This document shows, in pieces, positions 10,937-29,054 of a stretch of 64,000 bases of DNA. The stretch is taken from contig NZ_RCZP01000020.1 in the NCBI RefSeq assembly GCF_006438825.1, positions 1,166 through 65,165 of the forward strand. The letters are read 5' to 3'. A program made the position numbers and the translations under genes. This stretch comes from Muricoccus nepalensis (GTDB lineage Bacteria; Pseudomonadota; Alphaproteobacteria; Acetobacterales; Acetobacteraceae). Every line of letters begins with the position of its first letter. The first letter of the stretch is position 1. The notes beneath the pieces are model-generated. The model searched no databases and was not told where the DNA came from. It saw nothing but the letters and a program-made list of their open reading frames with translations.

Positions 10937-10952
10937 CTTGACGCTGTGGGCG

Positions 10953-11870: not shown

Positions 11871-11871
11871 C

Positions 11872-11982
11872 GCCAGTAGAGTCCAACCAAGCTCCGTTGC
11901 GGCCGTCGCTCGTGGAAGTGGCCGTTTCGATGATTACGGCTTAGCAAGGCTTCAGCGACTTGCGGAGTTGGACTCTGGTGGC
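11872..11982. repeat. Iterons downstream of repA
   Basis: Two further iterons follow the repA stop: an inverted copy at 11872-11886 (GCCAGTAGAGTCCAA) and an exact direct copy at 11968-11982 (TTGGACTCTGGTGGC). They match the upstream set, so repA is bracketed by iterons. They could be part of the origin or serve copy-number control by handcuffing. Confidence 0.78.
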
Positions 11983-12163
11983 GCTCCGCCCGTGCGGGAG
12001 CCTCTCGCTTGAGGGGTAATTTCCGAGTCTACCTGTGCCGCCAGCCTTTGGCTTCGGGCGGAGCTTTGCAGGTAGGGAGATGGTCCGAGCTTATGGATCA
12101 CCTGCTAGCAAGAGAATGAGCAGGGCGCTCCGCCCTGCCCTTCTGCACTGCTCAATGTGACGC

Positions 12164-12731
12164 GTGATGCGTGATGCACCATTCATTCACCACGCATCGG
12201 GGGTGCATCTAGGGTTTTTGCTGGGAGCTTCCATTGTGCCTCAAGCGTCGTTATTAACATGGAAGCGATCGCCCAATGGCGCGACTAGAGCACCGGGGTG
12301 CTGCTCCGGGGATCGTCTGGGTCAGAGTTAGCTCTTCAGCGGGGCACCTAGCAGCCGAACTTTCCAGCCCACCCGGGCCGTCATTACCGCTTCAGGGCCT
12401 CTGGCCAGCAGATGGATCACCAAGTTGGTCTCGATGCGTGATGCACGCATCTACCAACGCGCACGCACACCCTTATAGTCGCCTTGATGCGTCATTGTGA
12501 TGCGTGATGCGTGACGCACACCAAAACCTTGAATTTGCTGGTTGCACCTCAGAACATTGGCGCGATGCGTGCCCCGTTAGCCACGATGCGTGTTGCATTC
12601 ATCGTGATGCACCCATCACCTCCTGACAGAGACGGACTTGGTCGGGCAAGGTGCCGCTGAAGAAACGGTGGTGCGGGGGCACGGCCGACCTACAACGTAA
12701 AGCGTGCAGAACGATGCGTGATGCACGCATC
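12164..12731. repeat. Centromere-like repeat cluster upstream of parA (candidate parS)
   Basis: The near-palindrome GATGCGTGATGCACGCATC (arms GATGCGTG and CACGCATC, 3-nt centre) occurs exactly at 12433-12451 and 12713-12731. Partial copies lie at 12166-12179, 12191-12198, 12486-12493, 12499-12518, 12564-12571 and around 12584-12610. The last exact copy ends 27 bp before the parA ATG, so it probably also works as the operator for parA autoregulation. No gene is convincing in 11983-12758; the region is occupied by this array. Confidence 0.85.
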
Positions 12732-12758
12732 GCGCTCGGTCAGGGGAAGAGGGGATCA

Positions 12759-13403
12759 ATGCGTAGAATCGTTCTCGTTCAGCAGAAGGGCGGAGCTGCC
12801 AAGACGACGCTATGCGTCCACTTAGCGGTAGCCGCTGAGCAGGCCGGTTTTAAGACGGCCATCATCGATACTGACCCGCAGGGCAGCGCCTCGGCGGTCT
12901 GGGGTGCAGCGCGTGGTGACGTGGCCCCGCCGGTAGCGGCGGTGATCGCGGCCGAGCTGCGTGAAGCGCTGGAGGCGGCGGAGGCGGAAGGCTATCAGGT
13001 CGTCTTCATCGACACCGCGCCACATACGGCTCCGGCGATCGAGGTAGTGGCCCGCACCGTGGATCTGGCCATCGTGCCAGTGCAGCCTTCCATCTTGGAT
13101 GTGGCGGCCACCCAGCGGACAGTTGACCTGCTGAAGGCTAATAAAGTGCCTGCGGTCGCTGTCATGACCCGGGCTCCGTCCCGGCGAGACGAGGAGACCA
13201 ACGAGACTGAGAAGGCGATGGCGGCGCTCGGCCTGCCGATGCTCTTCAGTTGGATGGGTGAACGGAAGGTCTACCGCCGAGCGCTGACCCAGGGGCAGGC
13301 CGTGGCCGAGTTCGATCCGAGCAGCAAGGCAGCCAAGGAAATTAAGCAGATCTGGAAAGAAATCGAGAAGCTGGGCACGAGCAAGGTGAAGGCCGCAGCA
13401 TGA
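12759..13403 (+). CDS. parA: ParA-type partition ATPase
   Basis: 214 residues from ATG 12759, preceded by GAGGGG; a longer frame to 12651 runs through the centromere repeats and is unlikely to be translated. The deviant Walker A motif is QQKGGAAKTTL with the signature Lys, and further motifs are IIDTDPQGSAS and FIDTAPH. The size and lack of an N-terminal DNA-binding domain mark it as a small (type Ib-like) ParA. It should move plasmid copies by ATP-dependent nucleoid binding, together with the coupled small protein and the flanking repeats. It overlaps the next gene by 4 bp (ATGA). Confidence 0.93.
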   Translation: MRRIVLVQQKGGAAKTTLCVHLAVAAEQAGFKTAIIDTDPQGSASAVWGAARGDVAPPVAAVIAAELREALEAAEAEGYQVVFIDTAPHTAPAIEVVARTVDLAIVPVQPSILDVAATQRTVDLLKANKVPAVAVMTRAPSRRDEETNETEKAMAALGLPMLFSWMGERKVYRRALTQGQAVAEFDPSSKAAKEIKQIWKEIEKLGTSKVKAAA

Positions 13404-14232: not shown

Positions 14233-14491
14233 TGACGGAGCGCCCCGATCGAGCCCGCCGGCCGTCCCCTCGGCGGTGGTGCGGCTGGCGGCAGGCGCGG
14301 TCCCAGCGGAAGCGCTGGCGGTGCTGGCAGGCCCGGTGGGCGAGGCGGTAGCACGCGCCGCGGGCTATGCCGGGCGGGCGCTGTCGGAGAATACAAGGCG
14401 CGTTTACGCGTCGGACTGGTGCTCAGCTGACTGGCAGGAACGGCGAATCACGCTGCGCCTTGCGGCGAGAAAAACGGTTGCTGGCGTCTAG
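14233..14491 (+). pseudogene. Truncated relic of the tyrosine recombinase N-terminus
   Basis: The stretch from about 14029 to 14420 is homologous to the upstream region and first ~90 codons of the recombinase at 6.3-7.3 kb, in the opposite orientation. It keeps the GTGACGGAGCG start context at 14233, loses frame within 15 codons, and resumes as VRLAAGAVPAEALAVLAG and RALSENTRRVYASDW before joining unrelated sequence. Everything after the core-binding domain is missing. A diverged piece of the 7.5-kb palindrome (ATTGTCGGGCCCAAGGGG) is kept at 14031. It is a remnant that borders the defence island on the left. Confidence 0.8.
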
Positions 14492-15249
14492 GGGGGGACC
14501 TTAGGCGAAGGCGTATCGAGCGTGGCGGCGTACGCGGACCAATCAATGGCGGGGACGCTCCCCAACGATTGCAGCTTGGCCAAGAGGCGAAAGAGGAACG
14601 ATATCAACGCCCCCTTGGCGGAAACGATGCGGAGTTCCTCGTCAAACCGGTCAAACGCGCCGTGTTCCAACGCGCACCCGCAGTCTAAACGAGCTTCCGA
14701 ATCCACGGGAAGGTTCTTCAAGAACGCTTCTCCTAAACCGTCGGCCCAGCTCGACCTCGACGCGAGGATCCCGGCGACAATTGGAAATGGCACCTTGGGT
14801 TTGAACGTGCCGCCCGCGTGCGAGATGGAGACCGACGTCCGTCGAAGCTTTCGCACGGATGCCGCCTTGTCCCCCGCGTATTCGAGGTAGTTCTTGTCGA
14901 TGTGTGGCTTGCTCTCGAACACGGCGTACACCGCCTCGGCGGGGATGTAGCGATGGTTTTGCTGGTCCAGGAGCGTCGGCGTGAAGTGTTTGTCGAACAC
15001 AACGACGTCAATCTGCTGGCTCCGACCGCCGCGGCTGTCGATGACGAAGCCGGTCGCGACCTCGTACCGCTTAGGCAGGTAAGAGCGAAAGACCGCGATC
15101 CAGTGGTCCTCCTTGACCGCGCCCTGGGTCGGGAAGTGCGCGATGGAATCGGACGCGAGCTGGAGCTTCATCTCCAGCTCCTTCTGCACGCCGATGAACG
15201 CACCCCGCATCCAAGCAGTGTCCGCCGCTGGGTCGTCGTCCTGGCTCAT
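14488..15249 (-). CDS. DUF6602 / PD-(D/E)XK nuclease-like protein, candidate CBASS effector
   Basis: 253 residues from ATG 15249, overlapping the ATPase stop by 4 bp. Residues 45-120 match the DUF6602 pattern: KEDHWIAVFRSYLPKRYEV, GFVIDSRGGRSQQIDVVVFD, IPAEAVYAVFESK. D81, then E112-x-K114 in strand-like context, fit the metal-binding triad of PD-(D/E)XK nucleases, so DNA cleavage is a reasonable guess. It is the last gene of the CD-NTase/HORMA/TRIP13 operon and takes the place where known type III CBASS systems encode the effector (often NucC). No membrane helix or known cyclic-oligonucleotide-binding domain is evident. Domain identity is fairly sure; the effector role is inferred from position. 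Confidence 0.8.
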   Translation of the reverse strand: MSQDDDPAADTAWMRGAFIGVQKELEMKLQLASDSIAHFPTQGAVKEDHWIAVFRSYLPKRYEVATGFVIDSRGGRSQQIDVVVFDKHFTPTLLDQQNHRYIPAEAVYAVFESKPHIDKNYLEYAGDKAASVRKLRRTSVSISHAGGTFKPKVPFPIVAGILASRSSWADGLGEAFLKNLPVDSEARLDCGCALEHGAFDRFDEELRIVSAKGALISFLFRLLAKLQSLGSVPAIDWSAYAATLDTPSPKVPP

Positions 15250-16184
15250 GGAGTCCCCTCCCTGAAAGGCGGCGTCGGGCGCATCGAACGCGCGATCTCG
15301 ACGGCTCGCGCTCCGTCCACAGGCCGGGAAGGGTAGGCGTCCAGGACTATGGCGGGGACGAGGCGTTGCGTGAGATCGGAGAAGGTGCACCCGTATTCCC
15401 GACCGCCCACGGAGCCGGTCGCGTCGGCCATCTCGTCCAGGCAGGCGGGGCTAAGGCCGAGGCCGGCGAGCCGGGACGAGAGGACACCGCGCCTCTGCTC
15501 GGCGCTGGGGCGCGCGAAGCTCAACACCTCCGCGGCACGGCGCCGAACCGCGGGATCGAGCGCCTCCAGCCTGTTCGTGCACATGACCACGGCCGCCGGC
15601 AGCTTGGCGTTCGCGAGCCGATCCACGCCCCGTATGAAGGCGTTGACCCCCGCGCGGTCCTCGTGGTGCATCTGCGCGGCCTCGCGCGACTGGGCGAGCG
15701 CGTCAGCCTCGTCGACAAGCAGGATCACCGCCCCGCGCGCCTTCCCCGCCGGGGACGCCAACCGCGCCGCCGCGCTCGCGGTCTGCTCAAACGCCGCGGA
15801 GAGGAGCTGGGTCATTTCACCGACCCGGCCTTGCCCTCGGCTTGCCAGGCTGAGGGGCAGAAGGGTCACCTCCAGACCCTCCTGTCGGGCGACCGCGTCG
15901 CCGACCGTCTCCGCGAGCTCCGTCTTCCCCGAGCCGACGTCGCCCGCGAGAATGACCAACGGCGGGCGGCGCAGGACGGCGTCGAGAGCGGACCCTGCGT
16001 CCGGGTGGTGGCGCTTGGCCCAGGCCACCAAGCCGCCGGGGTTGACCAGTAGCGCGAGAATCTTGGTCAGGCGTTCCTTTTGCTCGTCGAGGCCGACGAG
16101 CCGCGCCAGCCGTGCCTGTGGTTCGGGGTCCGGGTAGAGGATGCACCGCTCAAATAGGCCATCCGCGGAAGGTGCCCCAGTCAT
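15246..16184 (-). CDS. cap6: TRIP13/Pch2-like AAA+ ATPase of CBASS (Cap6-like)
   Basis: 312 residues from ATG 16184, which overlaps the HORMA stop (TGATG). Walker A is GDVGSGKT (residues 81-88), Walker B ILLVDEAD (about 154-161), sensor 1 is VVMCTNR, and RRRAAEVLSF supplies the arginine finger. Bacterial TRIP13-like ATPases remodel the HORMA protein and switch off the cyclase, so they act as negative regulators of CBASS. The operon context (CD-NTase, HORMA, ATPase) makes this role likely. A longer frame upstream of 16184 lies inside the HORMA gene and is not used. Confidence 0.88.
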   Translation of the reverse strand: MTGAPSADGLFERCILYPDPEPQARLARLVGLDEQKERLTKILALLVNPGGLVAWAKRHHPDAGSALDAVLRRPPLVILAGDVGSGKTELAETVGDAVARQEGLEVTLLPLSLASRGQGRVGEMTQLLSAAFEQTASAAARLASPAGKARGAVILLVDEADALAQSREAAQMHHEDRAGVNAFIRGVDRLANAKLPAAVVMCTNRLEALDPAVRRRAAEVLSFARPSAEQRRGVLSSRLAGLGLSPACLDEMADATGSVGGREYGCTFSDLTQRLVPAIVLDAYPSRPVDGARAVEIARSMRPTPPFREGTP

Positions 16185-16699
16185 CAAAACCCCCTGACGC
16201 TGGCGCGGCTCAGCGCGCGCCCTCCCGACGAGTAGGTGCGGTCGTCCACCAGATAACCGGTGACCCCAGGTTCGGACGCCCCGACGCGACGGAACGGCAT
16301 CCGGTCCTTGAAGGCGTCCCGCTCGTGCTGGGCAAGGGCGTCCCACTTCGCGCTGTAGGTCAGGTAGCTGTGAAAGCTGGCGCCCTGGATGTTGGCCCCC
16401 GGCCGAACCTTCCCGGGGTCGTCGTCCGCGGCGGCGCCACCTGCGAGGTCGCGAGCGCTGTAGCGCAGGGCGGGTTCAACCCAGTTCCCGTCGCGCCTGA
16501 AGCCAAACGTGAGGATGCCCAAGTAGCCCTCCCTGATCAGCTCAACGGCCTCCGCCTCGAACTCCGCAATCTTAATGTCCGATGGCTGGCCATAGAAGCG
16601 CTGCATCCTCTTCAGGTCGGTGGCCACCTTCGCGGCCATGTGCCGGGCGTGCGTGACGGTGAACGTCGCGGTCGCGGTGAGCGTGTAGCTGTGGGACAT
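16184..16699 (-). CDS. cap7: HORMA domain protein of CBASS (Cap7-like, HORMA-1)
   Basis: 171 residues from ATG 16699, 5 nt after the cyclase stop; GTG 16708 is the alternative. The start MSHSYTLTATATFTVTHAR and the segments KVATDLKRMQRFYGQPSD, GYLGILTFGFRRDGNWV and SFHSYLTYSAKWDAL are typical of the bacterial HORMA-1 family. The C-terminal safety-belt region (VTGYLVDDRTYSSGGRALSR) is present. In type III CBASS the HORMA protein senses infection-derived peptides, closes, and activates the CD-NTase; the neighbouring ATPase reverses this. Only one HORMA gene is present. Confidence 0.87.
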   Translation of the reverse strand: MSHSYTLTATATFTVTHARHMAAKVATDLKRMQRFYGQPSDIKIAEFEAEAVELIREGYLGILTFGFRRDGNWVEPALRYSARDLAGGAAADDDPGKVRPGANIQGASFHSYLTYSAKWDALAQHERDAFKDRMPFRRVGASEPGVTGYLVDDRTYSSGGRALSRASVRGF

Positions 16700-16704
16700 G
16701 GATC

Positions 16705-17670
16705 TCACGCCTGGAAGGAGGGGCCGAAGACCTTCTGCCAGTAGGCGACGGTCTCGTGCTTCGTGGGGGCGGCCAGCGCCGCGTCGATGGCGTCGCCGGC
16801 ATCCTGGGCCGCCTCGACGATCGCGTCAGCGTTGGCCGCGGTGTAGAGCCGGGCGACGTTGTTGCCCGCGTTCACCGGGTCGATGATCTGGACCTCGTCG
16901 GGCAGCGGGCCCGCGCCCGACGGCCGGTAGTAGTCGCCAAAGACGATGCGCTCGCGGAAGTCGCTGACGGCGATGTAGGTGAAGAAGCTCAGAAGCGCCT
17001 CCGCATAGTCGTCAAAGCTGCAGCCGTCGTCACACAGCTTGGCCAGGACCATCTCGATCATGAAAGACTTGAAGCGGAAGCCCTCGCGTTCAGCCTTCAT
17101 CCGGCGAGCCCAGAACTTCGCCAGCCGCACCACCTGCGCGAAGTGCTTTCCGTGCCGCTGCTTTCGCTTGGCCGCGAAGTCCAGGTGCAGCGGGATGCTG
17201 GTCCGCAGGAGCGAGCCGTCGTCCTGGCTGACCAAGTCCCCGTACCACAGCGGGTCGCCGTCGTAGAGGATCGGGACGACGTCCACGTCGAGGCCGCTGC
17301 CCCGGAACGAGACCGTCACCGAGTAGGTCTGCGGCTGGATTTGGTTAGGGCTGAAGTTAGGGAATGCCTTGCGCAACCGCGCGGCGAGGTAATCGAGAAG
17401 GGCCGCCGCGTCTCTCGGGGCGTTCACCCCACCGATGTAGCACGCCACGTCGATGTCGTTCAGCGAGCGGAGGGCCGTCCCTTTCGCCAAGCTCCCGGAC
17501 AGGAGCATCTTGCGAAGGGTGAAATCGGGATGTTCGGCGAGGTAGCCCTCCAATCGCTCCCGCAGCCGTCGGGCCTGGGCCCGGAACTCGTCCGCCTTCT
17601 CCTTCGGCAGGTTCACTCTCTCGGCCGCGAAGGCGACGATCTCCCTTTGAGAGACGTGTTGACGACCCAT
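16705..17670 (-). CDS. CBASS cyclic-oligonucleotide synthase (CD-NTase)
   Basis: 321 residues from ATG 17670; an upstream GTG at 17691 adds 7 residues. The nucleotidyltransferase signature is SGSLAKGTALRSLNDIDVA, giving G59-S60 and catalytic D72 and D74, with a third Asp in LDVDVVP near residue 130. The rest (WARRMKAEREGFRFKSFMIEMV, then ITDPVNAGNNVA-type IIDPVNAGNNVARL) matches oligonucleotide cyclases of CBASS. It would make a cyclic di- or trinucleotide on infection. It is the first gene of a leftward operon with HORMA, ATPase and DUF6602 protein, and starts divergently from an RHH-led operon. Confidence 0.92.
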   Translation of the reverse strand: MGRQHVSQREIVAFAAERVNLPKEKADEFRAQARRLRERLEGYLAEHPDFTLRKMLLSGSLAKGTALRSLNDIDVACYIGGVNAPRDAAALLDYLAARLRKAFPNFSPNQIQPQTYSVTVSFRGSGLDVDVVPILYDGDPLWYGDLVSQDDGSLLRTSIPLHLDFAAKRKQRHGKHFAQVVRLAKFWARRMKAEREGFRFKSFMIEMVLAKLCDDGCSFDDYAEALLSFFTYIAVSDFRERIVFGDYYRPSGAGPLPDEVQIIDPVNAGNNVARLYTAANADAIVEAAQDAGDAIDAALAAPTKHETVAYWQKVFGPSFQA

Positions 17671-17772
17671 AAACGCGATCTCCCCCGCCACGACCCCATG
17701 CCAACCAGCATGTCAAATCATTTAATGGCTATTTTTTGGCCATTCAAGGGGGATAAAATTGGCCTGTTATAC

Positions 17773-17801
17773 TTGACAAGTTTAGCCAAACCCCTTATGT
17801 G
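17773..17801 (+). promoter_or_regulatory. Sigma-70-type promoter of the RHH-GNAT-XRE-ImmA-DAC operon
   Basis: TTGACA (17773-17778) is followed after 17 bp by TATGTG (17796-17801), 18 bp before the RHH start. The surrounding 17705-17795 stretch is markedly AT-richer than the genes and holds an inverted repeat AATGGC...GCCATT (about 17724-17744), a possible operator. A TTGACA on the minus strand (17716-17711) could serve the CBASS operon but has no good -10. Confidence 0.55.
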
Positions 17802-17819: not shown

Positions 17820-18032
17820 ATGACAGCAAAGCGGACAATGACGCTGAACCTCACGGACGCCGAGATGCGCGCGCTCGACGAACTGTCGGCCCGAAAGGAC
17901 GTCAGCAAGACGGCCGTCCTGCGCCAGGCGCTTCGGCTGTACCAAGCGGTGGAGGCCCGCGTCGAAAGGGGCGAGAAGCTTCTCTTCGAAAACGAGGCGA
18001 CGAAGGAGAAGGCCGAGTTGATGCTGGTCTGA
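17820..18032 (+). CDS. Ribbon-helix-helix (CopG-like) regulator
   Basis: 70 residues from ATG 17820, with GGAGG upstream. MTLNLTDAEMRALDELSARKDVSKTAVLRQALRLYQ is cut here into strand, helix A and helix B of an RHH fold: TMTLNLTDAEMRALDEL then VSKTAVLRQALRLYQAV. The C-terminus is charged and helical (EKLLFENEATKEKAEL). It is likely a DNA-binding autorepressor at the adjacent AT-rich operator. It is coupled (TGATG) to the GNAT gene, an arrangement known from RHH/GNAT toxin-antitoxin pairs, although this GNAT is longer than those toxins. Confidence 0.8.
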   Translation: MTAKRTMTLNLTDAEMRALDELSARKDVSKTAVLRQALRLYQAVEARVERGEKLLFENEATKEKAELMLV

Positions 18033-18655
18033 TGGTTGACGTTTCCACCATCTATCTTGTCGACGGAGCCACAGGGTCCGAAGTGCGGGCCGAGCTGCGC
18101 GATAGCATCGAGGACGCACAGCTGGTGGACTGGCAGCTCAAGTGGCGGCCCGCGCATGACGCCCTGATCCGGGAGCTGATCCAGAAGGGCGTCTCCCGCC
18201 AGCAATGGCCGCAGAGCTCGCACTGGGACTGGCGGCGGAAAGCGGCGCAGGTCCAAGGCCTGCTCGCGTTTCGGGGCTTCTGCGTTTTGGCGGACGGCGA
18301 GACGCAAGGCATGGCCCAGGTGGAGCTGACAAAATCGGCTCGGGCGCCCGTGCAAGCCGGCAAGCCTATAGTCTACATCGAGTACCTCGAGGCCGCGCCG
18401 TGGAACTCTCCCGAGCTTGGTCGGGCACCCCGGTACCGAGGGGTGGGCACGGCCCTCCTCAGCGCGGCCATCGCGCTGAGCGTTGAGGAGGGCTTCAAAG
18501 GCCGCATCGGCCTTCATTCCTTGCCTCAGGCCGAGGATTTCTACCGCCGACGCGGGATGGTCGATCTGGGTCCCGATCCGGACCCGGGCCACCAGCACCT
18601 GCGCTACTTCGAAATGACGGCCGAACAGGCCCGTGCGTTCCTCACAGAGGAGTGA
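18032..18655 (+). CDS. GNAT-family N-acetyltransferase
   Basis: 207 residues, start overlapping the RHH stop by one base. The acetyl-CoA-binding motif is RYRGVGTALLSAAI (about residues 132-145), preceded by the strand VYIEYLEAAPWN and followed by GRIGLHSLPQAEDFYRRRGM, a typical GNAT ending with the FYxxxGM helix. The N-terminal ~65 residues (HWDWRRKAAQVQGLLAFRGF) form a domain extension seen in a widespread but uncharacterised GNAT group. Substrate unknown; it could modify a partner in this operon or, by analogy with RHH/GNAT pairs, a tRNA-bound amino acid. The latter is weak because the size differs. Confidence 0.82.
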   Translation: MVDVSTIYLVDGATGSEVRAELRDSIEDAQLVDWQLKWRPAHDALIRELIQKGVSRQQWPQSSHWDWRRKAAQVQGLLAFRGFCVLADGETQGMAQVELTKSARAPVQAGKPIVYIEYLEAAPWNSPELGRAPRYRGVGTALLSAAIALSVEEGFKGRIGLHSLPQAEDFYRRRGMVDLGPDPDPGHQHLRYFEMTAEQARAFLTEE

Positions 18656-18660
18656 CGACG

Positions 18661-19161
18661 ATGAGATTGGAGCGAAGCAAGGAATGGTGGCTGGCCCGCG
18701 CTCGCCAAGAAGGCGACGCTGCGGTCGGTGCGGGCCTGCTAGCCGCGAATCCGGCGGTGGAGCAGCATGGCTTGGAGGCCCAACCCGCACCCGCCGAGGA
18801 GACGCGGATCGCGTTCGGCAGGTTCGTGAACCTCATGCGGCGGAGGCGGGGCTACTCCGTGGAGCAGCTGGCGGAGGCCGCCTGCCTGGAAGCGAGCGAA
18901 CTGCTCGTCATCGAGGAGGATCGGCACTACGTCCCGCAGCTTCGCACCGTGTTTGAACTCGCAAGGACGTTCGAGGTGCCTCAGCAGCGGCTGTTGCAGC
19001 TCGCGGGGCTCGCGGTCGCCAACGACGACGGATTGAGGAAGGAGGCGGTCCGCTTCGCGGCGCGCTCGGAGTCCATGCAGCGGCTGACCTCGGAGGAAAG
19101 CTCCGCGCTCGAAGCCTTTGTGGCCGTCCTGAGCGAGCAAGGTCCAAAGCGCGCCCGGTGA
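18661..19161 (+). CDS. XRE-family HTH regulator paired with ImmA/IrrE peptidase
   Basis: 166 residues from ATG 18661, with GAGGAG 9 nt upstream. The helix-turn-helix is at about residues 55-115: FGRFVNLMRRRRGYSVEQLAEAACLEASEL, here split as RFVNLMRRRRGYSVEQLAEA and LEASELLVIEEDRHYVP. The first 50 residues are mostly helical and may dimerise. It overlaps the next gene by GTGA. XRE/ImmA pairs act as a repressor and the peptidase that cleaves it upon a signal, so this is probably the substrate and controller of the downstream peptidase. Confidence 0.83.
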   Translation: MRLERSKEWWLARARQEGDAAVGAGLLAANPAVEQHGLEAQPAPAEETRIAFGRFVNLMRRRRGYSVEQLAEAACLEASELLVIEEDRHYVPQLRTVFELARTFEVPQQRLLQLAGLAVANDDGLRKEAVRFAARSESMQRLTSEESSALEAFVAVLSEQGPKRAR

Positions 19162-20075
19162 AGGTCGTCAGCCTCGCGGCCCGCACCCGCGCCGACATCG
19201 ACGCGCAGGTCGCGAAAGTGCTTCGCGGCCTCGGCAACCCCGAGCCGCCGGTCGATCTCCGGTTCGTGCGCGAGCTGCTGCGCCTGGACAGGGATTACTA
19301 CAGCACGACCGACGACGGGGTGCTGCGGGCGACGCTGTCGCGGATGCTCGTCGCGGGCCGGCAGGTCCTGCAACGTCCGACGCTTCTGCGGGATGCCGTG
19401 CGTTCCCTCAGCCTCAAGGCGCTGTACCTGCCCGACCAAAAACGGATCCTGCTGGACCGCGACCTGCCGGCGTTGAAGCACCGTTGGAACGAGGCCCACG
19501 AGATCGGCCACGACATCATCCCGTGGCACGCCGGCATGTTCTTCGGGGACACCGCGGTGACGCTGACGCCCGCGTGCCATGAAATAATGGAGGCGGAGGC
19601 GAACTACGCGGCAGGCCAGATGCTGTTTTTGAACTCGCGCTTTCCGGAGGCCGCGCTCTCCGGGCCGCCCCGGTTGGACAATATCAGGGCCCTCGGCAAG
19701 CTGTTCGGGAACAGCCTGACGTCGACGCTTTGGCGCTTCGTCGAACAGGCGCACGACGGCAAGCCGATGGTGGCGCTCGTATCGGGGCACCCGCACCCCG
19801 CGCGGCGCAAGGAAGATTTCGATCCTCTCCACCCCTGCCGCTACTGCGTGGAATCGCCGCCCTTCCGCGACCGGTTCGCGGGCGTTTCGGAGGCCGGGTT
19901 GTTCGGGCTAGTGTGCAGCTACGCCGGGGCGCAGAGCGGCGGGCCGCTCGGCGAGGGAGAAGTCTTGCTTGCCGACCAAAACGGCGATGACCACGTCTTC
20001 CACTTCGAGACGTTCTTCAACGGGCACGAGGCACTGACGCTCGGCGTCTGGCTGCACGCCCGCATCCGCCTTTGA
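19158..20075 (+). CDS. ImmA/IrrE-family metallo-endopeptidase
   Basis: 305 residues from GTG 19158 in the XRE stop. The zinc-binding motif is AHEIGH (His114, Glu115, His118), in the usual context of the ImmA/IrrE (COG2856) fold with KRILLDRDLPALKHRWNEAHEIGHD shortened here to KHRWNEAHEIGHD. A third ligand is likely a Glu in EIMEAEANYAAGQMLF, the family's E-x-x-A-N-x-A-A motif. The C-terminal ~100 residues (CRYCVESPPFRDRF, then a beta-rich end) are an extra domain with HPCRYC, a possible second metal site or sensor. It should cleave the XRE regulator or another target when triggered. Confidence 0.85.
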   Translation: MKVVSLAARTRADIDAQVAKVLRGLGNPEPPVDLRFVRELLRLDRDYYSTTDDGVLRATLSRMLVAGRQVLQRPTLLRDAVRSLSLKALYLPDQKRILLDRDLPALKHRWNEAHEIGHDIIPWHAGMFFGDTAVTLTPACHEIMEAEANYAAGQMLFLNSRFPEAALSGPPRLDNIRALGKLFGNSLTSTLWRFVEQAHDGKPMVALVSGHPHPARRKEDFDPLHPCRYCVESPPFRDRFAGVSEAGLFGLVCSYAGAQSGGPLGEGEVLLADQNGDDHVFHFETFFNGHEALTLGVWLHARIRL

Positions 20076-20081
20076 CCCGAC

Positions 20082-21797
20082 ATGCGGGACACGATCAACC
20101 TCTTCATGTGGGGCTACCAGCAGCACTTCCGACACTCGCTGCTGACCCGGACCAACGATGTTCTGCAGCTGCTCGGCGCCGACGGTCAGGCCAAGGGGCT
20201 GCTTGTCGGTGTGCAGAGCGAGAGCGATCCGGGTCGCCATCCCGTGTGCGTTGAGCCCGAAGACGAGGAATGGCCGCTCGCCCTGTTCTCGGGCCTCCGC
20301 GAGGAAGTCGAAGAGAAGATTCCCGTCCACCCCCTTCAAAGAATGTTCTACGGCGACGCGGCCACGAACCGCGACAAGCCGGCGAACATCCGGCGGTCAA
20401 CCATCACGGAGGCTGTACGACGTCGGCTTGAAGCCGCCGACCAAGCTTCCGGCGTCCGGACCTTCTGCGGCCTCGCGACCTTGGTCGAGGGATACTACGT
20501 CGTCTGCGCCCTTCAGCTACAGGCCCACTTGCTTGAACGGTTCCCGTCGGTGACGTGCACGGTCAACGGCCAGGCGTACGACACCAGCCTGCTTTTCCGC
20601 TGCGCCGACTTCCTGCTGGCGGAGGGCCAGCGCGCCCTCCTGCTGCCGGAGCCCGGGAGGATGATCAACGATGACGGCATGCGGTCTGCGTCGGAGATCG
20701 TTCGCGCCGCTGCGTCGTCGTTCATGCGCTCGCCTTTCTTGGGCGACTGGCGGTCCGTGGGCGACCTGTTCGGTGCATTCGAGAGGCTCTCGCAGGTGCT
20801 GTACGAAGGCACCGTCAACCTCGGCCGTATCGTCCTCGCCGCGTCCGACGACCCCAACGTGGAGTACTTACTGCGGCTCCGGAGGCCGGTGCCTTTGTCA
20901 CAGCCGCGATGGGCGCGGAAGCTTCTGCAGATGTCGGACCGCGACGTTGGCTTGGTCTCAGACGGTTTGAACATCTTCGGCCTTGGCCAACTCACCGACG
21001 TCAGCCCCCCGGCCTACTGCGTGGACTTCCTGGATCGGCAACAGTGGGATTTTCGCCGGGGAGACCAAGTCCTTCTGCGGTCGCGCTTCGGACAGGCGCT
21101 CCTCCCGCAGGAACCGATCGGCCAAGAGCGGTTCAAGGAAAACATGCGGCGTGTGTTTCCTGGCATTCGCGCCACCGAGGTGGCGCGCTTCGCGGAAGTG
21201 CTTGCCCACCTCGTGGAGTTCCGACGCGGGAGCTTGGTCGTCATCGCGAGTGATGCCGCGGAGGAAGCGCGGCGCCTCGCGCCGCAAGCAACCGTCATAG
21301 AGCCCGTTTCGCTCAGCCGCGAGCTCATCACGCGGGCGACCGAGATCGATGGTGCGCTCCTCGTCAGTCCGGACGGGCTCTGCCATGCGGTCGGGGTGAT
21401 CCTAGACGGCGTCGCGAAGGAGGAGGCCGCGTCCTCACGAGGTTCGCGCTACAATTCCGCCGCGCGGTACGTGATGGGCAGTGCAAAGTCGCGCATGGCC
21501 TTCGTGGTGTCCCACGACCGATCCTTGGACGTCATCCCTTTGCTCAAGCCCCGCGTGTCGCGGCGGGCGCTGGGCGAGGCGGTGGATGCCCTCTGCGCTT
21601 CCGACAACAAGAGCTACCACAAAGCCCGGAGCTTCCTCGACGATCACCGCTTCTACCTCGCAACCGATCAGTGCGAGCGCGTCAACGCGGCCTTGGACCG
21701 GATCGAGTCGGCCCCTCGCGAGGTTGGCCAGATCGTCGTCCTCACCAACCGTTTCGAGCCCGACCCCGCCATGAGTGACGAGTACCTGACGGACTGA
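20082..21797 (+). CDS. DisA-N-like (diadenylate cyclase/DAC) nucleotide-domain protein, putative sensor
   Basis: 571 residues, 6 bp after the peptidase. The C-terminal third resembles the DisA_N/DAC fold: ITRATEIDGALLVSPDG (DGA motif near residue 422) and SSRGSRYNSAARYV (near 454), equivalent to the GTRHRAA motif of diadenylate cyclases. The RHR triad is altered to R-Y-N, so it may bind rather than make a nucleotide, as proposed for DAC-derived sensor domains in defence operons. The N-terminal ~330 residues have no motif I recognise; FCGLATLVEGYYVVCALQL is the most regular part. No membrane segment. It is the last gene of the operon that faces the CBASS operon. Confidence 0.68.
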   Translation: MRDTINLFMWGYQQHFRHSLLTRTNDVLQLLGADGQAKGLLVGVQSESDPGRHPVCVEPEDEEWPLALFSGLREEVEEKIPVHPLQRMFYGDAATNRDKPANIRRSTITEAVRRRLEAADQASGVRTFCGLATLVEGYYVVCALQLQAHLLERFPSVTCTVNGQAYDTSLLFRCADFLLAEGQRALLLPEPGRMINDDGMRSASEIVRAAASSFMRSPFLGDWRSVGDLFGAFERLSQVLYEGTVNLGRIVLAASDDPNVEYLLRLRRPVPLSQPRWARKLLQMSDRDVGLVSDGLNIFGLGQLTDVSPPAYCVDFLDRQQWDFRRGDQVLLRSRFGQALLPQEPIGQERFKENMRRVFPGIRATEVARFAEVLAHLVEFRRGSLVVIASDAAEEARRLAPQATVIEPVSLSRELITRATEIDGALLVSPDGLCHAVGVILDGVAKEEAASSRGSRYNSAARYVMGSAKSRMAFVVSHDRSLDVIPLLKPRVSRRALGEAVDALCASDNKSYHKARSFLDDHRFYLATDQCERVNAALDRIESAPREVGQIVVLTNRFEPDPAMSDEYLTD

Positions 21798-21823: not shown

Positions 21824-22543
21824 TCAGCCAGGGCCACTCCGTTTGACCGCGGCACGCTGATAGCGGCCGACGACGCGTCCGACCTGAGACGGATGCCAGC
21901 GCGCACCGCGTCCGGACGGCGTGGGCACGCCCCTGGCGTCCGAAGCGTTGGCGATTTCTTGCAGAGTAGACGTCCCTGCTGTCTTCGCGCTTTCGATGAA
22001 TGGCAGCACATCGGCGATTCGGTCGCGCGAGCACGCCGAGCGCACGGCGTTCGCGGCGCGCGCCTGCGCGTGCGAGCCGGCGCGGAGGTTCGGGTTGCCG
22101 AGCCGGACGCCGCGCGCCTTCGCGGCGGCGAGCGCGGCCTTCGTGCGTGCGCTGATTATGCGCGCCTCCTCCTCGGCCACGGCCGCGAGAATGTGCACGG
22201 TCAACCGGTTCACGGTCGGCATGTCGGCGGCGACGAACTCGACGCCGCTCTCCAAAAGCCCCGACACGAAGTGGACGTTGCGCGCGAGGCGGTCGAGCTT
22301 GGCGATGACCAGCACGGCGCAGTGTGCGCGCACGGCGGCCAGCGCCGCAGCGAGCTGTGGGCGGTCCTTCTTCCTTCCGCTCTCCACCTCCACGAACTCA
22401 GCCACCACGACGGCGCGGGACACGCCGGCGACGTGGGCGGCGACGGCGGCGCGCTGGGCCTCCAGGCCGAGGCCGGAGCGCCCCTGCTTGTCGGTGCTGA
22501 CCCGATAGTAGGCGACGAAGCGGGCTGGCGGAGAGGCGGTCAC
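21824..22543 (-). CDS. Serine recombinase (resolvase family), copy 1
   Basis: 239 residues, ATG start (MTASPPARFVAYYRVSTDKQ). The catalytic Ser is in YYRVSTDKQGRSGLGLEAQ; AKLDRLARN and the Asp/Arg segments that complete the resolvase N-terminal domain follow. The C-terminal part (STLQEIANASDARGVPTP, GARWHPSQVGRVV) is the recombinase-type DNA-binding helix region. It is close to the copies at 28.3 and 39.9 kb. A 19-bp site shared with copy 2 lies 65 bp upstream of its start. It may mediate resolution or inversion between such sites. Confidence 0.88.
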   Translation of the reverse strand: MTASPPARFVAYYRVSTDKQGRSGLGLEAQRAAVAAHVAGVSRAVVVAEFVEVESGRKKDRPQLAAALAAVRAHCAVLVIAKLDRLARNVHFVSGLLESGVEFVAADMPTVNRLTVHILAAVAEEEARIISARTKAALAAAKARGVRLGNPNLRAGSHAQARAANAVRSACSRDRIADVLPFIESAKTAGTSTLQEIANASDARGVPTPSGRGARWHPSQVGRVVGRYQRAAVKRSGPG

Positions 22544-22696: not shown

Positions 22697-25600
22697 ATGG
22701 GATCCTTTGGAATGCAGATGGAGCAAGGTGGGGACGTGGCGCATTCGCTAAGAGATCTGCTTGCAAGATACCGGGCTAGCGCGGCGACGGAACGGGAGAA
22801 GGGGACGTACTTCGAACGCCTTGTCGCGACCTGGATGCGGAGCGCGCCGACGCAACGCGATCTCTACAGCCGCGTGCTGACCTTTGCCGAGTGGGCGAAG
22901 GAGCGGGGGGAGGACGCGACCGACACGGGGATCGACCTCGTCGCGCAGCTCGCGGACGCGCCTGACGCGTGGTGCGCCGTGCAGTGCAAGTTCTACAAGG
23001 AGGGGCACCGCCTCCGGATGGAGGACATCAGCGGCTTCTTCGCCGCCTCCGGCCGCATGCCCTTCGTCCGCCGCGTCTTCGTCGACACGACCGGCGTTAA
23101 CTGGACCGACAACGCGGAGGCGACGCTCCACGACCAGCAGATGGAGACGCTCCGCATCTCGCTGACGGACCTTGAGGACAGCGGCATCGACTGGGGCGCC
23201 TACGCCGACACCGGCAAGGTCCGCCTCCACGACAAGAAGCAACCGCGCCAGCACCAGCGAGACGCCATCGACTGCGTCCGGGAGGGCCTCGCGAAGGCGG
23301 ACCGCGGCAAGCTTATCATGGCCTGCGGCACGGGAAAGACCTTCACCGCTCTGAAGATCGCCGAAGAACTGGCGGGGAAGGGGGGCCGCGTCCTCTTCCT
23401 CGTCCCCTCCCTCGCCCTGATGCAGCAGACCGTCCGCGAGTGGTCCATCGACAGCGGGGTGCCGCTCCGCTCGTTCGCTGTGTGCTCCGACGCCCAGGTC
23501 GGGGTGCGGCGGGGGAGGGCCGACGATCTCGCCGACATCGACGTCCACGACCTCGAGATTCCCGCGACGACGGACGGCTCGCGGCTCGCGGCGAAGGCGA
23601 CCGCCACGGACTCCGAGCGGATGACGGTCGTCTTCTCGACCTACCAGTCCATCCCGGCCATCTCGGTCGCCCAGAAGAGGTTCGGCCTCCCCGAGTTCGA
23701 CATTATCGTCTGCGACGAGGCCCACCGGACGACGGGCGTGACCCTCGCCGGCGAGGACGAGAGTAACTTCGTCCGGGTCCATGAGCAGGACTACATCGCC
23801 GGCCGGAAGCGCCTCTACATGACGGCGACGCCGCGCGTGTACGGCGAGGCCCTCCAGCAGGTCGCCCGCGATGCCGACGCCGCCCTCTGCTCGATGGACG
23901 ACCCGGCCCTCTTCGGGGAGACACTCTTCACCCGCAACTTCGGCTGGGCGGTCCAGAACGGGCTGCTGACGGACTACAAAGTGATCGTCCTCGCCGTGAA
24001 TGAGGCCGACGTGAGCGCGAGCCTCCAGGCCCGCCTCGCCGACGAGAACAGCGAACTCCTCCTCGACGACGCGACGAAGATCGTCGGCTGCTACAAGGCC
24101 CTCCTCAAGTCGGACTTCGCGCCTGACGCGGGCGGCGACTCGACCCCGATGCGCCGCGCCATCGCTTTCGCGAAGAGCATCGCCGCGTCGAAGCTCGTCG
24201 AGGCCGAGTTCTCGAGGGTCGCGTCCGACTGGCGCGCGGCGGTCGAGGCCGAGGCGGACGGGGACGCGCTGCCCGCCCTGGAGTGCCGGGTGAAGCACGT
24301 GGACGGGGGCTTCAACGCGAAGGCCCGCGACCAGCTCCTCTCCTGGGTGAAGGAGGACACGGGCCGCGCCGACGAGTGCCGAATCCTCACGAACGCCCGG
24401 TGCCTCTCCGAGGGCGTGGACATCCCCGCCCTCGACGCGATCATGTTCCTCCACCCCCGGAAGTCGCAGATCGACGTGGTCCAGGCGGTTGGCCGAGTCA
24501 TGCGGCGCGCCGAGGGCAAGCGGATGGGCTACGTCATCCTCCCCGTCGGCGTCCCCGCGGGGGTGGAGCCGGAGGACGCGCTTGACGACAACGAGCGCTA
24601 CCGGGTGGTATGGCAAATTCTCAATGCCCTTCGCTCGCACGACGAGCGCCTCGACGCCACGATCAACAAGATCGACCTCGGCGTGGATCCCGGCGACCGC
24701 ATCGAGGTCGTCGCCGTCACGAACCATCTCCCGGAACGAGCCGAGCCGAAGGTCAAGGGGATTGGGATTGGTCAGGGAGGCGGCGCGGGGGACCACGAGC
24801 CGGGCGACGAACCCCGCCAGCCGTCGAGGGTGGCAGGAGGTGAGCAGGGGAGCTTCGCCTTCGACGAGTTCTCCCGCGCGATCCTCGCCCGGATCGTGAA
24901 GAAGTGCGGCACGCGGACTTACTGGGAGGACTGGGCACGTGACGTCGCGCGCATCGCGGAGATCCACGTCACCCGAATCAAGGCTGCGGTCGAGGCCGCT
25001 GGGAGCGAGGAGAAGGCGGCGTTCGATCGCTTCCTCGCCGAGATCCGGGACGACCTGAACGACTCCATCACCGCCGAAGAGGCGATGGAGATGCTCGCCC
25101 AGCACCTTATAACGCGGCCGGTGTTCGAGGCGCTGTTCGAGGGGTACTCCTTCGCGGCTAGCAATCCTGTCAGCCGCGCCCTCGAGGGCGTCCTCGACGT
25201 GCTCGACCGGCAACACCTCGAGAAGGAGGCCCAGGGCCTCGGGCGCTTCTACGACAGCGTGCGGTCACGCGCCGCGGGCATTGAGGATGCTGCGGGGAAG
25301 CAGAAGATCGTTCTTGAGCTCTACGACAAGTTCTTCCGCACTGCCTTCCCGAAAATGGCAGAGCGGCTGGGCATCGTCTACACACCCGTCGAGGTTGTCG
25401 ACTTCATCCTCCGCTCCGTGGACGAGCTTCTACGGGAGAACTTCGGAGAGACGCTCAGCAGCAAGGGGGTCCACGTCATCGACCCCTTCGTCGGGACAGG
25501 CACCTTCATCACCCGGCTGCTGCAGTTGGGCCTGATCCGGCCGGAGGACCTGGAGCGCAAGTATCGAAGTGAGCTGCACGCAAGCGAGATTGTGCTCCTC

Positions 25601-27757
25601 GCCTACTACATCGCCGCGATCAACATTGAGGCAGTGTATCATGCCGCCGCGGGCGGTGAGTACGTTCCCTTTGAGGGCATCTGCCTCACCGACACCTTCC
25701 AGCTCTACGAGGGTGAGCGCGACCTTGTGAGCGAGTTGATGGCGGACAATACTACTCGACGGGTGCGTCAGAAGAGGCTGCCGATTCGGGTCATCGTTGG
25801 TAACCCGCCGTACTCGGAAGGTCAGAAGAGTGAGAACGATAACGCCGATAACCTGAGCTATCCGGTTCTCGACGGCCGCATCAGGTCCACCTACGCCGCG
25901 CGCTCCAGGGCGAAGCTGGCAAAGGGTCTTTACAACAGCTACGTGCGGGCACTGCGCTGGGCGAGCGACCGAATGGGACCAGCGGGCGTCGTCGGCTTCG
26001 TCACCAACGCCGGCTGGGTGGATGCGAACATGGCCGACGGGCTCCGCAAGAGCCTCGCCGACGAGTTCTCCTCAATCTACGTCTTTCACCTGCGCGGGAA
26101 CCAGCGCACGTCAGGCGAGCTCTCGCGCCGTGAGGGGGGTAAGATATTCGGCCAGGGCAGCCGCGCCCCAATTGCGATCACCATCCTCGTGAAGAACCCC
26201 GAAGCGTCCGAGCAGGGTGTGATCCACTTCCACAACGTCGGCGACTACCTGTCGCGCGAGGAGAAGTTGGCCAAGGTGCGCTCACTCGGCAGCGTCGGCG
26301 GGCTGGAAGCAACGACGAGCTGGCAGCGCATCTTGCCCGACGTACACGGGGATTGGCTCGGCCAACGCGACGCAGGCTTCGACCGGTTCATCTCGATGGG
26401 CGACAAGTCGGGGAAGGGCGCTGCGCTGTTCGAGCGCTTCTCGCTGGGTGTGGTAACGAATCGCGACTTTTGGGCTCGAAACCCGAGCCGGGCGGCCTTA
26501 GCCGCCAACATGGCCGCGATGATCGGCACATACAACGCTGAGCTGGAGCGCTTCAATGCGGCGTATCCAGCGTCGGATCGGCGGGCGCGCGAGAATGCGG
26601 TTGACCGTTTCGTGGACAGTGACCCGAAGCGCATTAGCTGGACTCGTAGTCTCAAAGCGGACTTGGTCAGGGCCAAGCGCCTCGACTTCGACGCGGGTGC
26701 GCTCGTCCGCAGCCTCTACCGTCCCTTCTCAACGTACTGGCTTTACTACGACAGACGGCTCAACGAGATGGTTTACCAGATGCCGCGCGTGTTTCCGATG
26801 CGGGATGCGTTGAAGGTAAATCGGGCAATCTGCATCGCCGCGCCCGGACACATCGGCGGGTTCAGCGCGTTGATGACCGACGTTCCTCCTGAACTCTGCG
26901 TTGCTGCCATGAAGGGCGGAACGCAGTGCTTCCCGCGTTGGCTTTACGATGCGGAAGTATCAGCCGGCGCGGACGGCGAGCTGGGCCTGGCTGGAACTGC
27001 ATCGCCCGAAGATGGCATGGGCCGGCGGGACGCGATCACCGACACGGGTCTCGAACACTTTCGTGCCTCATATCCCGGCGATGCCGTCTCCAAGGACGAC
27101 GTGTTCCACTATGTTTACGGCATGCTGCACTCGCCGGAGTACCGCGCCCGCTTCGCCGACAATCTCACGAAGCAGCTACCACGCATCCCGACTGTCGGAT
27201 CGGCTTCTGCGTTCCGCGCCTTCGTTTCGGCTGGCCGCGAGCTGGCCGATCTGCACGCCTGCTATGAACAGGCGGAGCCCTACCCTGTTACCATCGAGCA
27301 GGGCGCCTTGGAGCTTGCCCATGTTTCCGACCCGGCGAAGTTCTTCCGCGTCGAGAAGATGAGGTTTGGTGGGAAGCGGCCCAAGCTCGACCGCGCGACG
27401 ATCATCTACAATCCCAACATCACGATCACCGACGTCCCGCTCGCGGCCTACGACTACATCGTGAACGGGAAGCCAGCCATCGAGTGGGTGATGGAGCGGC
27501 AGGGGATCAAGACGGACCCGGCGAGCGGCATCGTCTGGGACACCAATTCCTTCGCGAACGAGACCATGGGAAATCCGGCATATCCCTTTGAGCTTCTCTG
27601 CCGCGTGATCACGGTCAGCCTCCGCACGATGGAGATCGTCCGCTCGCTCCCACCGCTCTACATCGAGCAAGACAACGATATTGGTGCTGCACCAGATCCA
27701 GCAGGCGAGGAACGAGTGCCGGCGGAGGTGCCAGGGATGGCTGACGCGGCCGAGTAG
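22697..27757 (+). CDS. Type ISP-like restriction-modification enzyme (nuclease-helicase-methyltransferase fusion)
   Basis: About 1686 residues in one chain. Residues 75-100 carry an Mrr-like nuclease motif (GIDLVAQL then AVQCKFYKEG). An SF2 helicase follows: Walker A ACGTGKTFTAL (about 211), DEAH box IIVCDEAHRTTG (about 339), MTATPR, and motif VI DVVQAVGRVMRRA. After a helical coupler comes a gamma-type N6-adenine methyltransferase: TPVEVVDFIL, DPFVGTGTF (about 928) and NPPYSEGQ (about 1035). The C-terminal ~450 residues form the target-recognition part. This matches LlaGI/LlaBIII-type ISP enzymes, which protect by methylating one strand and cut foreign DNA after translocation. Starts at 22697, 22712 and 22718 are all possible. 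All key motifs look intact. Confidence 0.9.
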   Translation: MGSFGMQMEQGGDVAHSLRDLLARYRASAATEREKGTYFERLVATWMRSAPTQRDLYSRVLTFAEWAKERGEDATDTGIDLVAQLADAPDAWCAVQCKFYKEGHRLRMEDISGFFAASGRMPFVRRVFVDTTGVNWTDNAEATLHDQQMETLRISLTDLEDSGIDWGAYADTGKVRLHDKKQPRQHQRDAIDCVREGLAKADRGKLIMACGTGKTFTALKIAEELAGKGGRVLFLVPSLALMQQTVREWSIDSGVPLRSFAVCSDAQVGVRRGRADDLADIDVHDLEIPATTDGSRLAAKATATDSERMTVVFSTYQSIPAISVAQKRFGLPEFDIIVCDEAHRTTGVTLAGEDESNFVRVHEQDYIAGRKRLYMTATPRVYGEALQQVARDADAALCSMDDPALFGETLFTRNFGWAVQNGLLTDYKVIVLAVNEADVSASLQARLADENSELLLDDATKIVGCYKALLKSDFAPDAGGDSTPMRRAIAFAKSIAASKLVEAEFSRVASDWRAAVEAEADGDALPALECRVKHVDGGFNAKARDQLLSWVKEDTGRADECRILTNARCLSEGVDIPALDAIMFLHPRKSQIDVVQAVGRVMRRAEGKRMGYVILPVGVPAGVEPEDALDDNERYRVVWQILNALRSHDERLDATINKIDLGVDPGDRIEVVAVTNHLPERAEPKVKGIGIGQGGGAGDHEPGDEPRQPSRVAGGEQGSFAFDEFSRAILARIVKKCGTRTYWEDWARDVARIAEIHVTRIKAAVEAAGSEEKAAFDRFLAEIRDDLNDSITAEEAMEMLAQHLITRPVFEALFEGYSFAASNPVSRALEGVLDVLDRQHLEKEAQGLGRFYDSVRSRAAGIEDAAGKQKIVLELYDKFFRTAFPKMAERLGIVYTPVEVVDFILRSVDELLRENFGETLSSKGVHVIDPFVGTGTFITRLLQLGLIRPEDLERKYRSELHASEIVLLAYYIAAINIEAVYHAAAGGEYVPFEGICLTDTFQLYEGERDLVSELMADNTTRRVRQKRLPIRVIVGNPPYSEGQKSENDNADNLSYPVLDGRIRSTYAARSRAKLAKGLYNSYVRALRWASDRMGPAGVVGFVTNAGWVDANMADGLRKSLADEFSSIYVFHLRGNQRTSGELSRREGGKIFGQGSRAPIAITILVKNPEASEQGVIHFHNVGDYLSREEKLAKVRSLGSVGGLEATTSWQRILPDVHGDWLGQRDAGFDRFISMGDKSGKGAALFERFSLGVVTNRDFWARNPSRAALAANMAAMIGTYNAELERFNAAYPASDRRARENAVDRFVDSDPKRISWTRSLKADLVRAKRLDFDAGALVRSLYRPFSTYWLYYDRRLNEMVYQMPRVFPMRDALKVNRAICIAAPGHIGGFSALMTDVPPELCVAAMKGGTQCFPRWLYDAEVSAGADGELGLAGTASPEDGMGRRDAITDTGLEHFRASYPGDAVSKDDVFHYVYGMLHSPEYRARFADNLTKQLPRIPTVGSASAFRAFVSAGRELADLHACYEQAEPYPVTIEQGALELAHVSDPAKFFRVEKMRFGGKRPKLDRATIIYNPNITITDVPLAAYDYIVNGKPAIEWVMERQGIKTDPASGIVWDTNSFANETMGNPAYPFELLCRVITVSLRTMEIVRSLPPLYIEQDNDIGAAPDPAGEERVPAEVPGMADAAE

Positions 27758-28340: not shown

Positions 28341-29054
28341 ATCACGGCCGTCCCAGCCCGCCGGAACCCCCGTGCCCCTCCGCGCTTCGTCGCCTACGTC
28401 CGCGTTTCGACCGAAGGCCAGGGCCGCTCCGGCCTCGGGCTCGAGGCTCAGCGCGAGGCCGTCGCCCGCCACGTTGCCGGCGCAGGCGGCGCCATCAGCG
28501 CCGAGTTCGTCGAGGTGGAGAGCGGGCGGAAGAAGGATCGGCCGCAGCTCGCGGCCGCCCTTGCGGGCTGCCGCGCCAGCCGCGCCACCCTCGTTATCGC
28601 CAAGCTCGACCGCCTGGCCCGCAACGTCGCCTTCGTCTCGGGCCTGATGGAGAGCGGCGTCGAGTTCGTCGCCGCCGACATGCCGGCGGTGAATCGCCTC
28701 ACCGTGCACATCCTCGCCGCCGTCGCCGAAGAAGAGGCACGCATGATCTCGGCGCGGACGAAGGCAGCGCTCGCTGCGGCGAAGGCTCGCGGCGTGCAGC
28801 TCGGCAACCCGCGCCTGCTCGCGCGCGACCCCGTCGCTTCTGCAAAGGGCAACGCGGTGCAGGTGGAGGACGCGCGGCGACGTGCTGCGGTCGTTCTGCC
28901 GTACATCGAGAGGGCCCGTCGTGCGGGCGCAGTGACACTTGCAGAGATTGCAGAAGCCCTCATGGCGCGCGGTGTGTCGGCACCGCGCGGCGGGCAGCGC
29001 TGGGCGCCCGCCCAGGTCCGCCGGATCATGCTGACAGCCTCGCAGTTCGTTTAG
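28341..29054 (+). pseudogene. Serine recombinase copy 2, lacking a normal start codon
   Basis: The frame reads ITAVPARRNPRAPPRFVAY then VRVSTEGQGRSGLGLEAQ, catalytic Ser included, AKLDRLARN, and a complete C-terminus (SAPRGGQRWAPAQVRRIM). The two sister copies begin ATGACCGCC; here the same place reads ATCACGGCC, and a TGA lies 6 bp further up, so no ATG, GTG or TTG is available before the catalytic motif. The first internal start (GTG 28515) would lose the active Ser. It is therefore either initiated at ATC (rare) or inactivated by a single base change; the body is otherwise intact, 237 residues. Confidence 0.7.

Follow-up and report, generated by a model that had tools for sequence, protein, structure and literature searches.

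Here we describe a five-gene operon in a 64,000-nucleotide stretch of Muricoccus nepalensis DNA (contig NZ_RCZP01000020.1; hereafter the window) that encodes, in order, a ribbon-helix-helix (RHH) protein, a GNAT acetyltransferase, an XRE regulator, an ImmA/IrrE peptidase, and a protein with a DAC domain. Our preferred reading, to which we assign a probability of roughly 0.7, is that the locus combines a type III cyclic oligonucleotide-based antiphage signaling system (CBASS) with a divergent controller cassette and a DAC protein linked to CBASS, and that both of these serve the CBASS operon. Sequence comparison shows a four-gene cassette that is conserved while its partners change, and a ladder of half-sites in the intergenic region that cassette and partner share. 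Genes 1 to 4 are best read as a portable control cassette for immune operons, of a sort already known for such operons but in a form that we did not find described.

All five genes lie on the plus strand with junctions of −1 (overlap), +5, −4 (overlap), and +6 bp. An earlier note on this DNA, made from the sequence alone, had described the genes as overlapping or at most 6 bp apart, and this is correct; Pfam, PADLOC, and NCBIfam likewise bear out the kinds of gene that it named, and the H114/E115 pair of the peptidase and the RGSRYNSA of the DAC protein are present as written. Homologues that align from residue 1 back the starts of genes 1 to 4, and the DAC start is supported as well. Head to head with the operon, on the minus strand (14488–17670), are genes for a CD-NTase, a HORMA protein, TRIP13, and the effector NucC, the full complement of a type III CBASS (Table 1). 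The CD-NTase start was placed at query residue 8, where most plasmid homologues begin.

The RHH-GNAT-XRE-ImmA genes recur in the same order at 20 loci, comprising 16 plasmid loci, three from whole-genome draws, and the window. The plasmid loci were found by protein searches in which the peptidase and the GNAT protein served as queries and which gave overlapping lists of records. Matches to the peptidase were present in 31 plasmid records, 20 of them with at least 80% cover; 16 of these 20 were examined, leaving out H11, H13, and H23 (same-species copies) and H29, and 15 carry all four genes. The exception is a planctomycete locus (L055) that has neither RHH nor GNAT. Three lower-cover records were also examined, of which L064 is counted as a cassette, L063 holds a peptidase remnant only, and L066 holds only helix-turn-helix (HTH) and ImmA genes. 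When a GNAT profile was run against whole-genome draws, the order gave matches in 4 of 395 genomes and the phylum in 3 of 398, with the own genome in both; three of the five other genomes hold the full cassette and two a GNAT gene without it. The 20 loci include two sets of near copies, L051/L059 and L081/L082.

What varies from locus to locus is the partner. A CBASS or ubiquitin-like operon stands head to head with the cassette in 17 of the 20 loci: type III CBASS in six (the window, L045, L046, L047, L081, and L082) and a multiubiquitin/E1-type, ubiquitin-like operon in 11 (L048–L053, L059, L060, L061, L062, and L084), the L062 partner consisting of E1 and Mov34/JAB genes with no multiubiquitin match. 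Two cassettes face a DUF2188 gene (L056, 4235–4459; L064, 4415–4651), and one, in L054, faces transposases only and is the single locus without an intact partner. The plasmid of L054 also carries, at 9668–10923, a second HTH-ImmA pair without RHH or GNAT, opposite a ubiquitin-like operon. The L064 locus is on a Gemmobacter plasmid and has a transposase and a predicted sul2 gene near its interrupted peptidase.

Seen from the CBASS side, 43 plasmid records carry this CD-NTase at E 1e-40 or better, and the four that are also in the peptidase list are its four nearest relatives (79–82% identity; next 74%). Three of the four were examined, together with five cassette-less relatives of this CBASS; 34 of the 43 records were left out besides. 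In the cassette's place, the Thauera and Burkholderia relatives have HTH-ImmA genes, those of R. phaseoli and A. vitis have a WYL gene, and that of Acetobacter has nothing annotated.

Among the four cassette proteins, RHH is the most highly conserved, with 52–87% identity across the 16 plasmid cassettes. Its ribbon, KxTMTLNL, is nearly invariant in 13 aligned rows, with seven of the eight columns constant in 12–13 of the 13, and the HTH positions of XRE vary more than this ribbon, the presumed recognition helix included. The GNAT protein, named by no NCBIfam model, shows invariant APWN, GxG, and YFE motifs in an alignment of 15 rows; PDB searches with GNAT and RHH gave no useful match. The peptidase scores 18.1 bits against Peptidase_M78, below the gathering score of 22, and residues H114, E115, and H118 are invariant in 11 aligned rows, giving it the HExxH that characterizes CapH+CapP, a repressor-peptidase controller of CBASS. 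A profile of the cassette peptidase family matches the solved CapP structure 7t5t at E 7e-4, and a single-sequence structure model of the peptidase was useless (predicted local distance difference test (pLDDT) 35). A tree built from 18 peptidases unites the cassette enzymes (99/96) apart from CapP, whose branch is long, and places the planctomycete peptidase of L055 inside the cassette group.

The cassette thus resembles CapH+CapP in its HTH and M78 ImmA/IrrE peptidase pair, in HExxH, and in its divergent orientation from a type III CBASS. It differs in having RHH and GNAT in front, in the length of its XRE (166 residues, with an N-terminal extension, compared with 107 in Thauera), in the separate clade of its peptidase, and in its intergenic region, since those of Thauera and Burkholderia have no TRGCYA half-site. 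The Thauera peptidase matches 7t5t over its full length. CapH+CapP is reported with Bub operons as well (PMC13373217). Of the switch proposed in the earlier note, one part has support from homology, which sets a repressor and peptidase like CapH+CapP next to an immune operon; the other part, the DAC protein as the trigger, is not supported.

The shared intergenic regions contain up to four TRGCYA half-sites that recur at spacings of 11, 22, and 33 bp, with a few at 23/34 bp and at other distances. A half-site pair at the 11-bp step occurs in 15 of 20 loci, compared with a mean of 0.008 and a maximum of 1 in 500 dinucleotide shuffles, and in 14 of 18 loci when the near copies L059 and L082 are removed. 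Outside the shared intergenic region, no pair was found in the remainder of 17 loci, and no half-site was found in eight comparison intergenic regions without the cassette RHH (CapH+CapP, other HTH-ImmA, WYL, Nostoc GNAT, and DUF1778-GNAT). In 14 of the 15 loci with a pair, the pair lies behind a TTGNNT, a candidate −35 element of the immune operon with 17-bp spacing. This operator-anchored promoter has a summed match of 104 of 180, compared with 47.8 (standard deviation 6.0, maximum 69) in 2000 mononucleotide shuffles, and the ladder likely lies in the spacer of the immune-operon promoter. On the cassette strand, the best promoter match has TTGACA or TTGACT in all 20 loci; in 15 of them its distance to the closest half-site is exactly 7, 18, 29, or 40 bp, again in 11-bp steps.

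Several observations weigh against this picture. In the window alone, the half-site pair is at chance level (one match with at most one mismatch, compared with 0.79 expected), and across the own genome the ladder pattern gives three sites compared with two for a reversed control; the ladder signal therefore lies in recurrence at one place across loci. The strict pair is absent from 5 of the 20 loci, among them L056, which has one conservative ribbon change, and L064, whose ribbon is unchanged. In only 6 of 15 loci does the operator-anchored promoter outscore every other match in its intergenic region, which slightly lowers our confidence in the explanation as a whole; this promoter fails in L084, and in the window another stretch scores slightly above the putative CBASS promoter. 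A generic promoter scan found neither the putative CBASS promoter nor that of the cassette, nor any other. L047 and L054 have a shifted ImmA frame and L064 an interrupted one (3 of 20), the clade formed by the cassette peptidases is separate from CapP and matches it weakly in the PDB, and only in the window is a cassette joined to a DAC gene (1 of 20).

The likeliest ladder-binding repressor of the cassette would be RHH, because its ribbon is nearly fixed, because L062, whose ribbon is the most clearly changed, has no half-site pair, and because the HTH positions of XRE are more variable. Palindromes of about 17 bp are frequent targets of XRE dimers, and XRE rather than RHH could bind the ladder, as in CapH+CapP, with TRGCYA-N5-TRGCYA read as a 17-bp palindrome for an XRE dimer and RHH-GNAT as a hitch-hiking toxin-antitoxin pair. 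The half-site TAGCTA is itself palindromic, XRE-ImmA is the part that the cassette and CapH+CapP have in common, and L056 and L064 lack the strict pair despite a normal or nearly normal RHH ribbon. We nevertheless consider XRE binding unlikely, given the recurrence of 11-, 22-, and 33-bp spacings with as many as four half-sites, the conservation of RHH and constancy of its ribbon beside a variable XRE HTH, and the missing pair in L062, the only locus with a clearly changed ribbon.

With RHH as the binder, RHH dimers would occupy the ladder and thereby close the two divergent promoters. The ImmA/IrrE peptidase, activated by DNA damage or by phage single-stranded DNA, would then cleave XRE, as CapP cleaves CapH, and release repression. 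The GNAT protein could be a toxin that the RHH tail keeps in check, or its enzymatic activity could tune the repressors. The DAC protein would be co-expressed with the cassette and act together with the CBASS, either sensing a nucleotide by binding it or serving as a second cyclase. Beyond the shared site, these steps are drawn by analogy with CapH+CapP. Tentatively, and at odds somewhat short of even, we suggest an undescribed family of portable controllers in which a toxin-antitoxin-like RHH(-GNAT) complex polymerizes on the 11-bp ladder over two divergent promoters and XRE-peptidase provides a damage-sensing release; loss of repression would arm the immune operon and free the acetyltransferase, and in the window the controller would also command the DAC partner of the type III CBASS.

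Type II toxin-antitoxin pairs of the RHH-GNAT kind exist, and the cassette resembles them in that its RHH gene overlaps the GNAT gene behind it; it differs in that the two are fixed in a four-gene cassette and that the GNAT has no NCBIfam match. The cassette might then serve mainly plasmid addiction or stabilization, its immune neighbors reflecting defense-island clustering, and 16 of the 20 loci do come from the plasmid collection, which was also the most searched. The head-to-head arrangement with CBASS or ubiquitin-like operons at 17 of 20 loci, the half-sites over the likely immune promoter, and the absence of an NCBIfam name for the GNAT make addiction as the main function distinctly improbable.

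Under the control reading that we favor, the cassette is of interest because immune systems that kill need to be held off until required, and a four-gene controller offers a handle on how they are switched. This controller moves between CBASS and ubiquitin-like operons with a repeated site over its likely target promoter, and the half-site ladder provides a DNA signature for finding more immune operons. According to PMC13373217, another controller, CapK+CapS, pairs a kinase with a STAS-domain repressor at CBASS and Bub operons and is followed by YegP-like genes in 57 cases. Like the cassette, CapK+CapS is a portable regulator before immune operons, with a YegP-like gene as a further partner; unlike it, CapK+CapS is described as consisting of a kinase and a STAS repressor rather than RHH, GNAT, XRE, or peptidase. 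The DUF2188 genes opposite the cassette in L056 and L064 may be compared with these YegP-like genes, the two families being, we presume, linked. A search of titles and abstracts for RHH or GNAT with CapH/CapP, CBASS, or ImmA, a scope mostly outside subscription papers, gave no description of the cassette, and PMC13373217 contains no mention of GNAT, ribbon-helix-helix, acetyltransferase, CopG, or RHH. The statement in the earlier note that it knew no described system with this gene order needs correcting as to the last gene, which belongs to the DS2_3 family.

The DAC protein scores 653.1 bits against the NCBIfam model NF053872, 'DS2_3_antiphage' (cut-off 630), a name that, with the gene order, we read as referring to DefensePredictor DS-2. 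PMC13092281 gives DS-2 as phospholipase, cGAS, and DAC, reports that mutating either of two predicted catalytic DAC residues abolished defense, and places a CBASS next to 15 of 30 DAC homologues. The window protein is like DS-2 in scoring above the model cut-off and in adjoining a CBASS. It differs in that this CBASS is type III with NucC, that the DAC gene follows a controller cassette rather than a cyclase, and that its partners are CD-NTase, HORMA, TRIP13, and NucC, not the phospholipase and cGAS of the DS-2 that was assayed. It is a member of a known defense family in an unusual setting, and with a DS-2-type DAC beside a type III CBASS, the role of the DAC protein can be tested apart from the phospholipase.

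A pattern-based scan of one genome for each of 84,980 species gave 35 loci, 34 with a detectable DAC; several are on short contigs, so the 34 are not 34 full neighborhoods, and not all are independent (L035 and L036 look alike, and L025 may be from the same genome, G138, as L005 and L006). A CD-NTase lies beside 20 of the 34 by profile and beside one more, L028, by PADLOC. Near DAC relatives, we identified the effectors patatin, Cap15, and 2TM and, once, a NucC-like protein. No HORMA or TRIP13 appeared as best marker among the listed DAC-neighbor genes, in a marker search insensitive enough to miss the NucC-like protein of L032, and the type III partner may therefore be peculiar to the window. 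The nearest DAC relatives, in Gluconobacter and Komagataeibacter (54–55% identity), are likewise divergent from their CBASS.

The note also called the catalytic triad altered. RGSRYNSA is real, and the alteration is not private to this copy: RGxRYN is the form common to the whole aligned family and so gives no sign of decay in the window protein. An alignment of 35 rows, of which 34 are distinct because L001 repeats the window, has D423, G424, R453, G454, R456, and N458 without exception, and tyrosine at residue 457 in 31 rows. Of the canonical diadenylate cyclase motifs, DGA is present and RYN replaces RHR; we take the two to be equivalent from motif positions and the CdaA-like fold. The DisA-type enzyme of M. 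tuberculosis depends on RHR both to bind ATP and to be active (PMC3328451). An AlphaFold2 model of the DAC protein (pLDDT 83.5) gives residues 361–488 a DAC fold like that of CdaA (Z 13.8 over 121 residues, 2.5 Å), with the loop at 444–453, directly before RGxRYN, modeled at low confidence; the DACNG part has weak fold matches to ligand-binding domains (Z under 5). By sequence, the family profile found no DisA or CdaA in the PDB, only weak McrC matches, and the single sequence found none. This protein may be either a nucleotide sensor or a second cyclase. DAC relatives were not found in viral and phage collections, and a PF02457 search of the own genome found no DAC, which only hints at the absence of others, as it missed the window's own.

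The DAC protein is part of the CBASS locus, with the cassette between it and the type III CBASS. It is probably read through from the cassette operon in the window, because the gap is 6 bp and no terminator-like site was found on the plus strand of the five-gene operon. That all five genes form one system for defense or stress, with the peptidase triggered by a DAC protein that has sensed a nucleotide, is very improbable despite the tight spacing on a single strand: 19 of 20 cassettes have no DAC in the flanking stretch covered, and none of the 34 other DAC loci has the cassette in the flanks covered (one weak XRE-profile match, 4e-4, lies 8 kb from the DAC of L013). Because the genes are found apart across genomes, the five-gene unit fails by the standard the earlier note set for itself, and genes 1 to 4 hold together.

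Table 1. Genes and putative regulatory sites of the locus, in window positions
Feature	Position	Strand	Support
NucC endonuclease effector	14488..15249	-	PADLOC NucC 1e-70; Pfam DUF6602 7.5e-29
TRIP13-type AAA ATPase	15246..16184	-	PADLOC TRIP13 3.3e-129
HORMA	16184..16699	-	Pfam bacHORMA_1 4.4e-62; PADLOC HORMA 2e-84
CBASS CD-NTase	16705..17670	-	NF041116 1.8e-120; PADLOC Cyclase 8.9e-139
Putative CBASS promoter, -35 TTGAAT / 17 bp / -10 TAAATG, operator in spacer	17719..17747	-	operator-anchored pattern, 15 loci
Operator-like pair TGGCTA-N5-TGGCCA, 11-bp ladder	17726..17742	.	significant over the set of loci, at chance level within the window
Putative cassette promoter, TTGACA / 17 bp / TATGTG	17773..17801	+	best-match pattern
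RHH (CopG-type) protein, 70 aa	17820..18032	+	Pfam RHH_1 4.7e-06
GNAT acetyltransferase, 207 aa	18032..18655	+	Pfam Acetyltransf_10 1.7e-05
XRE/HTH regulator, N-terminal extension, CapH-like by position	18661..19161	+	Pfam HTH_19 2.6e-11
ImmA/IrrE (M78) peptidase, CapP-like, HExxH at 114-118	19158..20075	+	PADLOC capP 4.9e-11
DACNG-DACNH-DAC protein, DS-2 third-gene family	20082..21797	+	NF053872; Pfam DACNG + DACNH + DAC

Searched for in 100 relatives, the cassette peptidase had two weak matches in addition to the own genome; a search across 385 genomes of the class gave the own peptidase and one other at a contig end (L086), and peptidase relatives were not found in viral contigs. In L086, this cassette-type peptidase (about 6300–7186) is preceded by a small protein that is RHH-like by eye, and GNAT and XRE were not found in the region. 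A Nostoc locus (L065, 2202–3585) has a GNAT relative without XRE-ImmA, behind a small protein that is RHH-like by eye and followed by an unknown 175-residue protein. The contig is probably a plasmid, as it carries RepA and ParA-like genes (10938–13403). Directly downstream of the operon is a Type ISP restriction-modification enzyme (22709–27757) with Mrr_cat_2, helicase, coupler, and specificity domains, and resolvase genes lie near it at 21824–22543 (minus strand) and 28515–29054 (plus strand).

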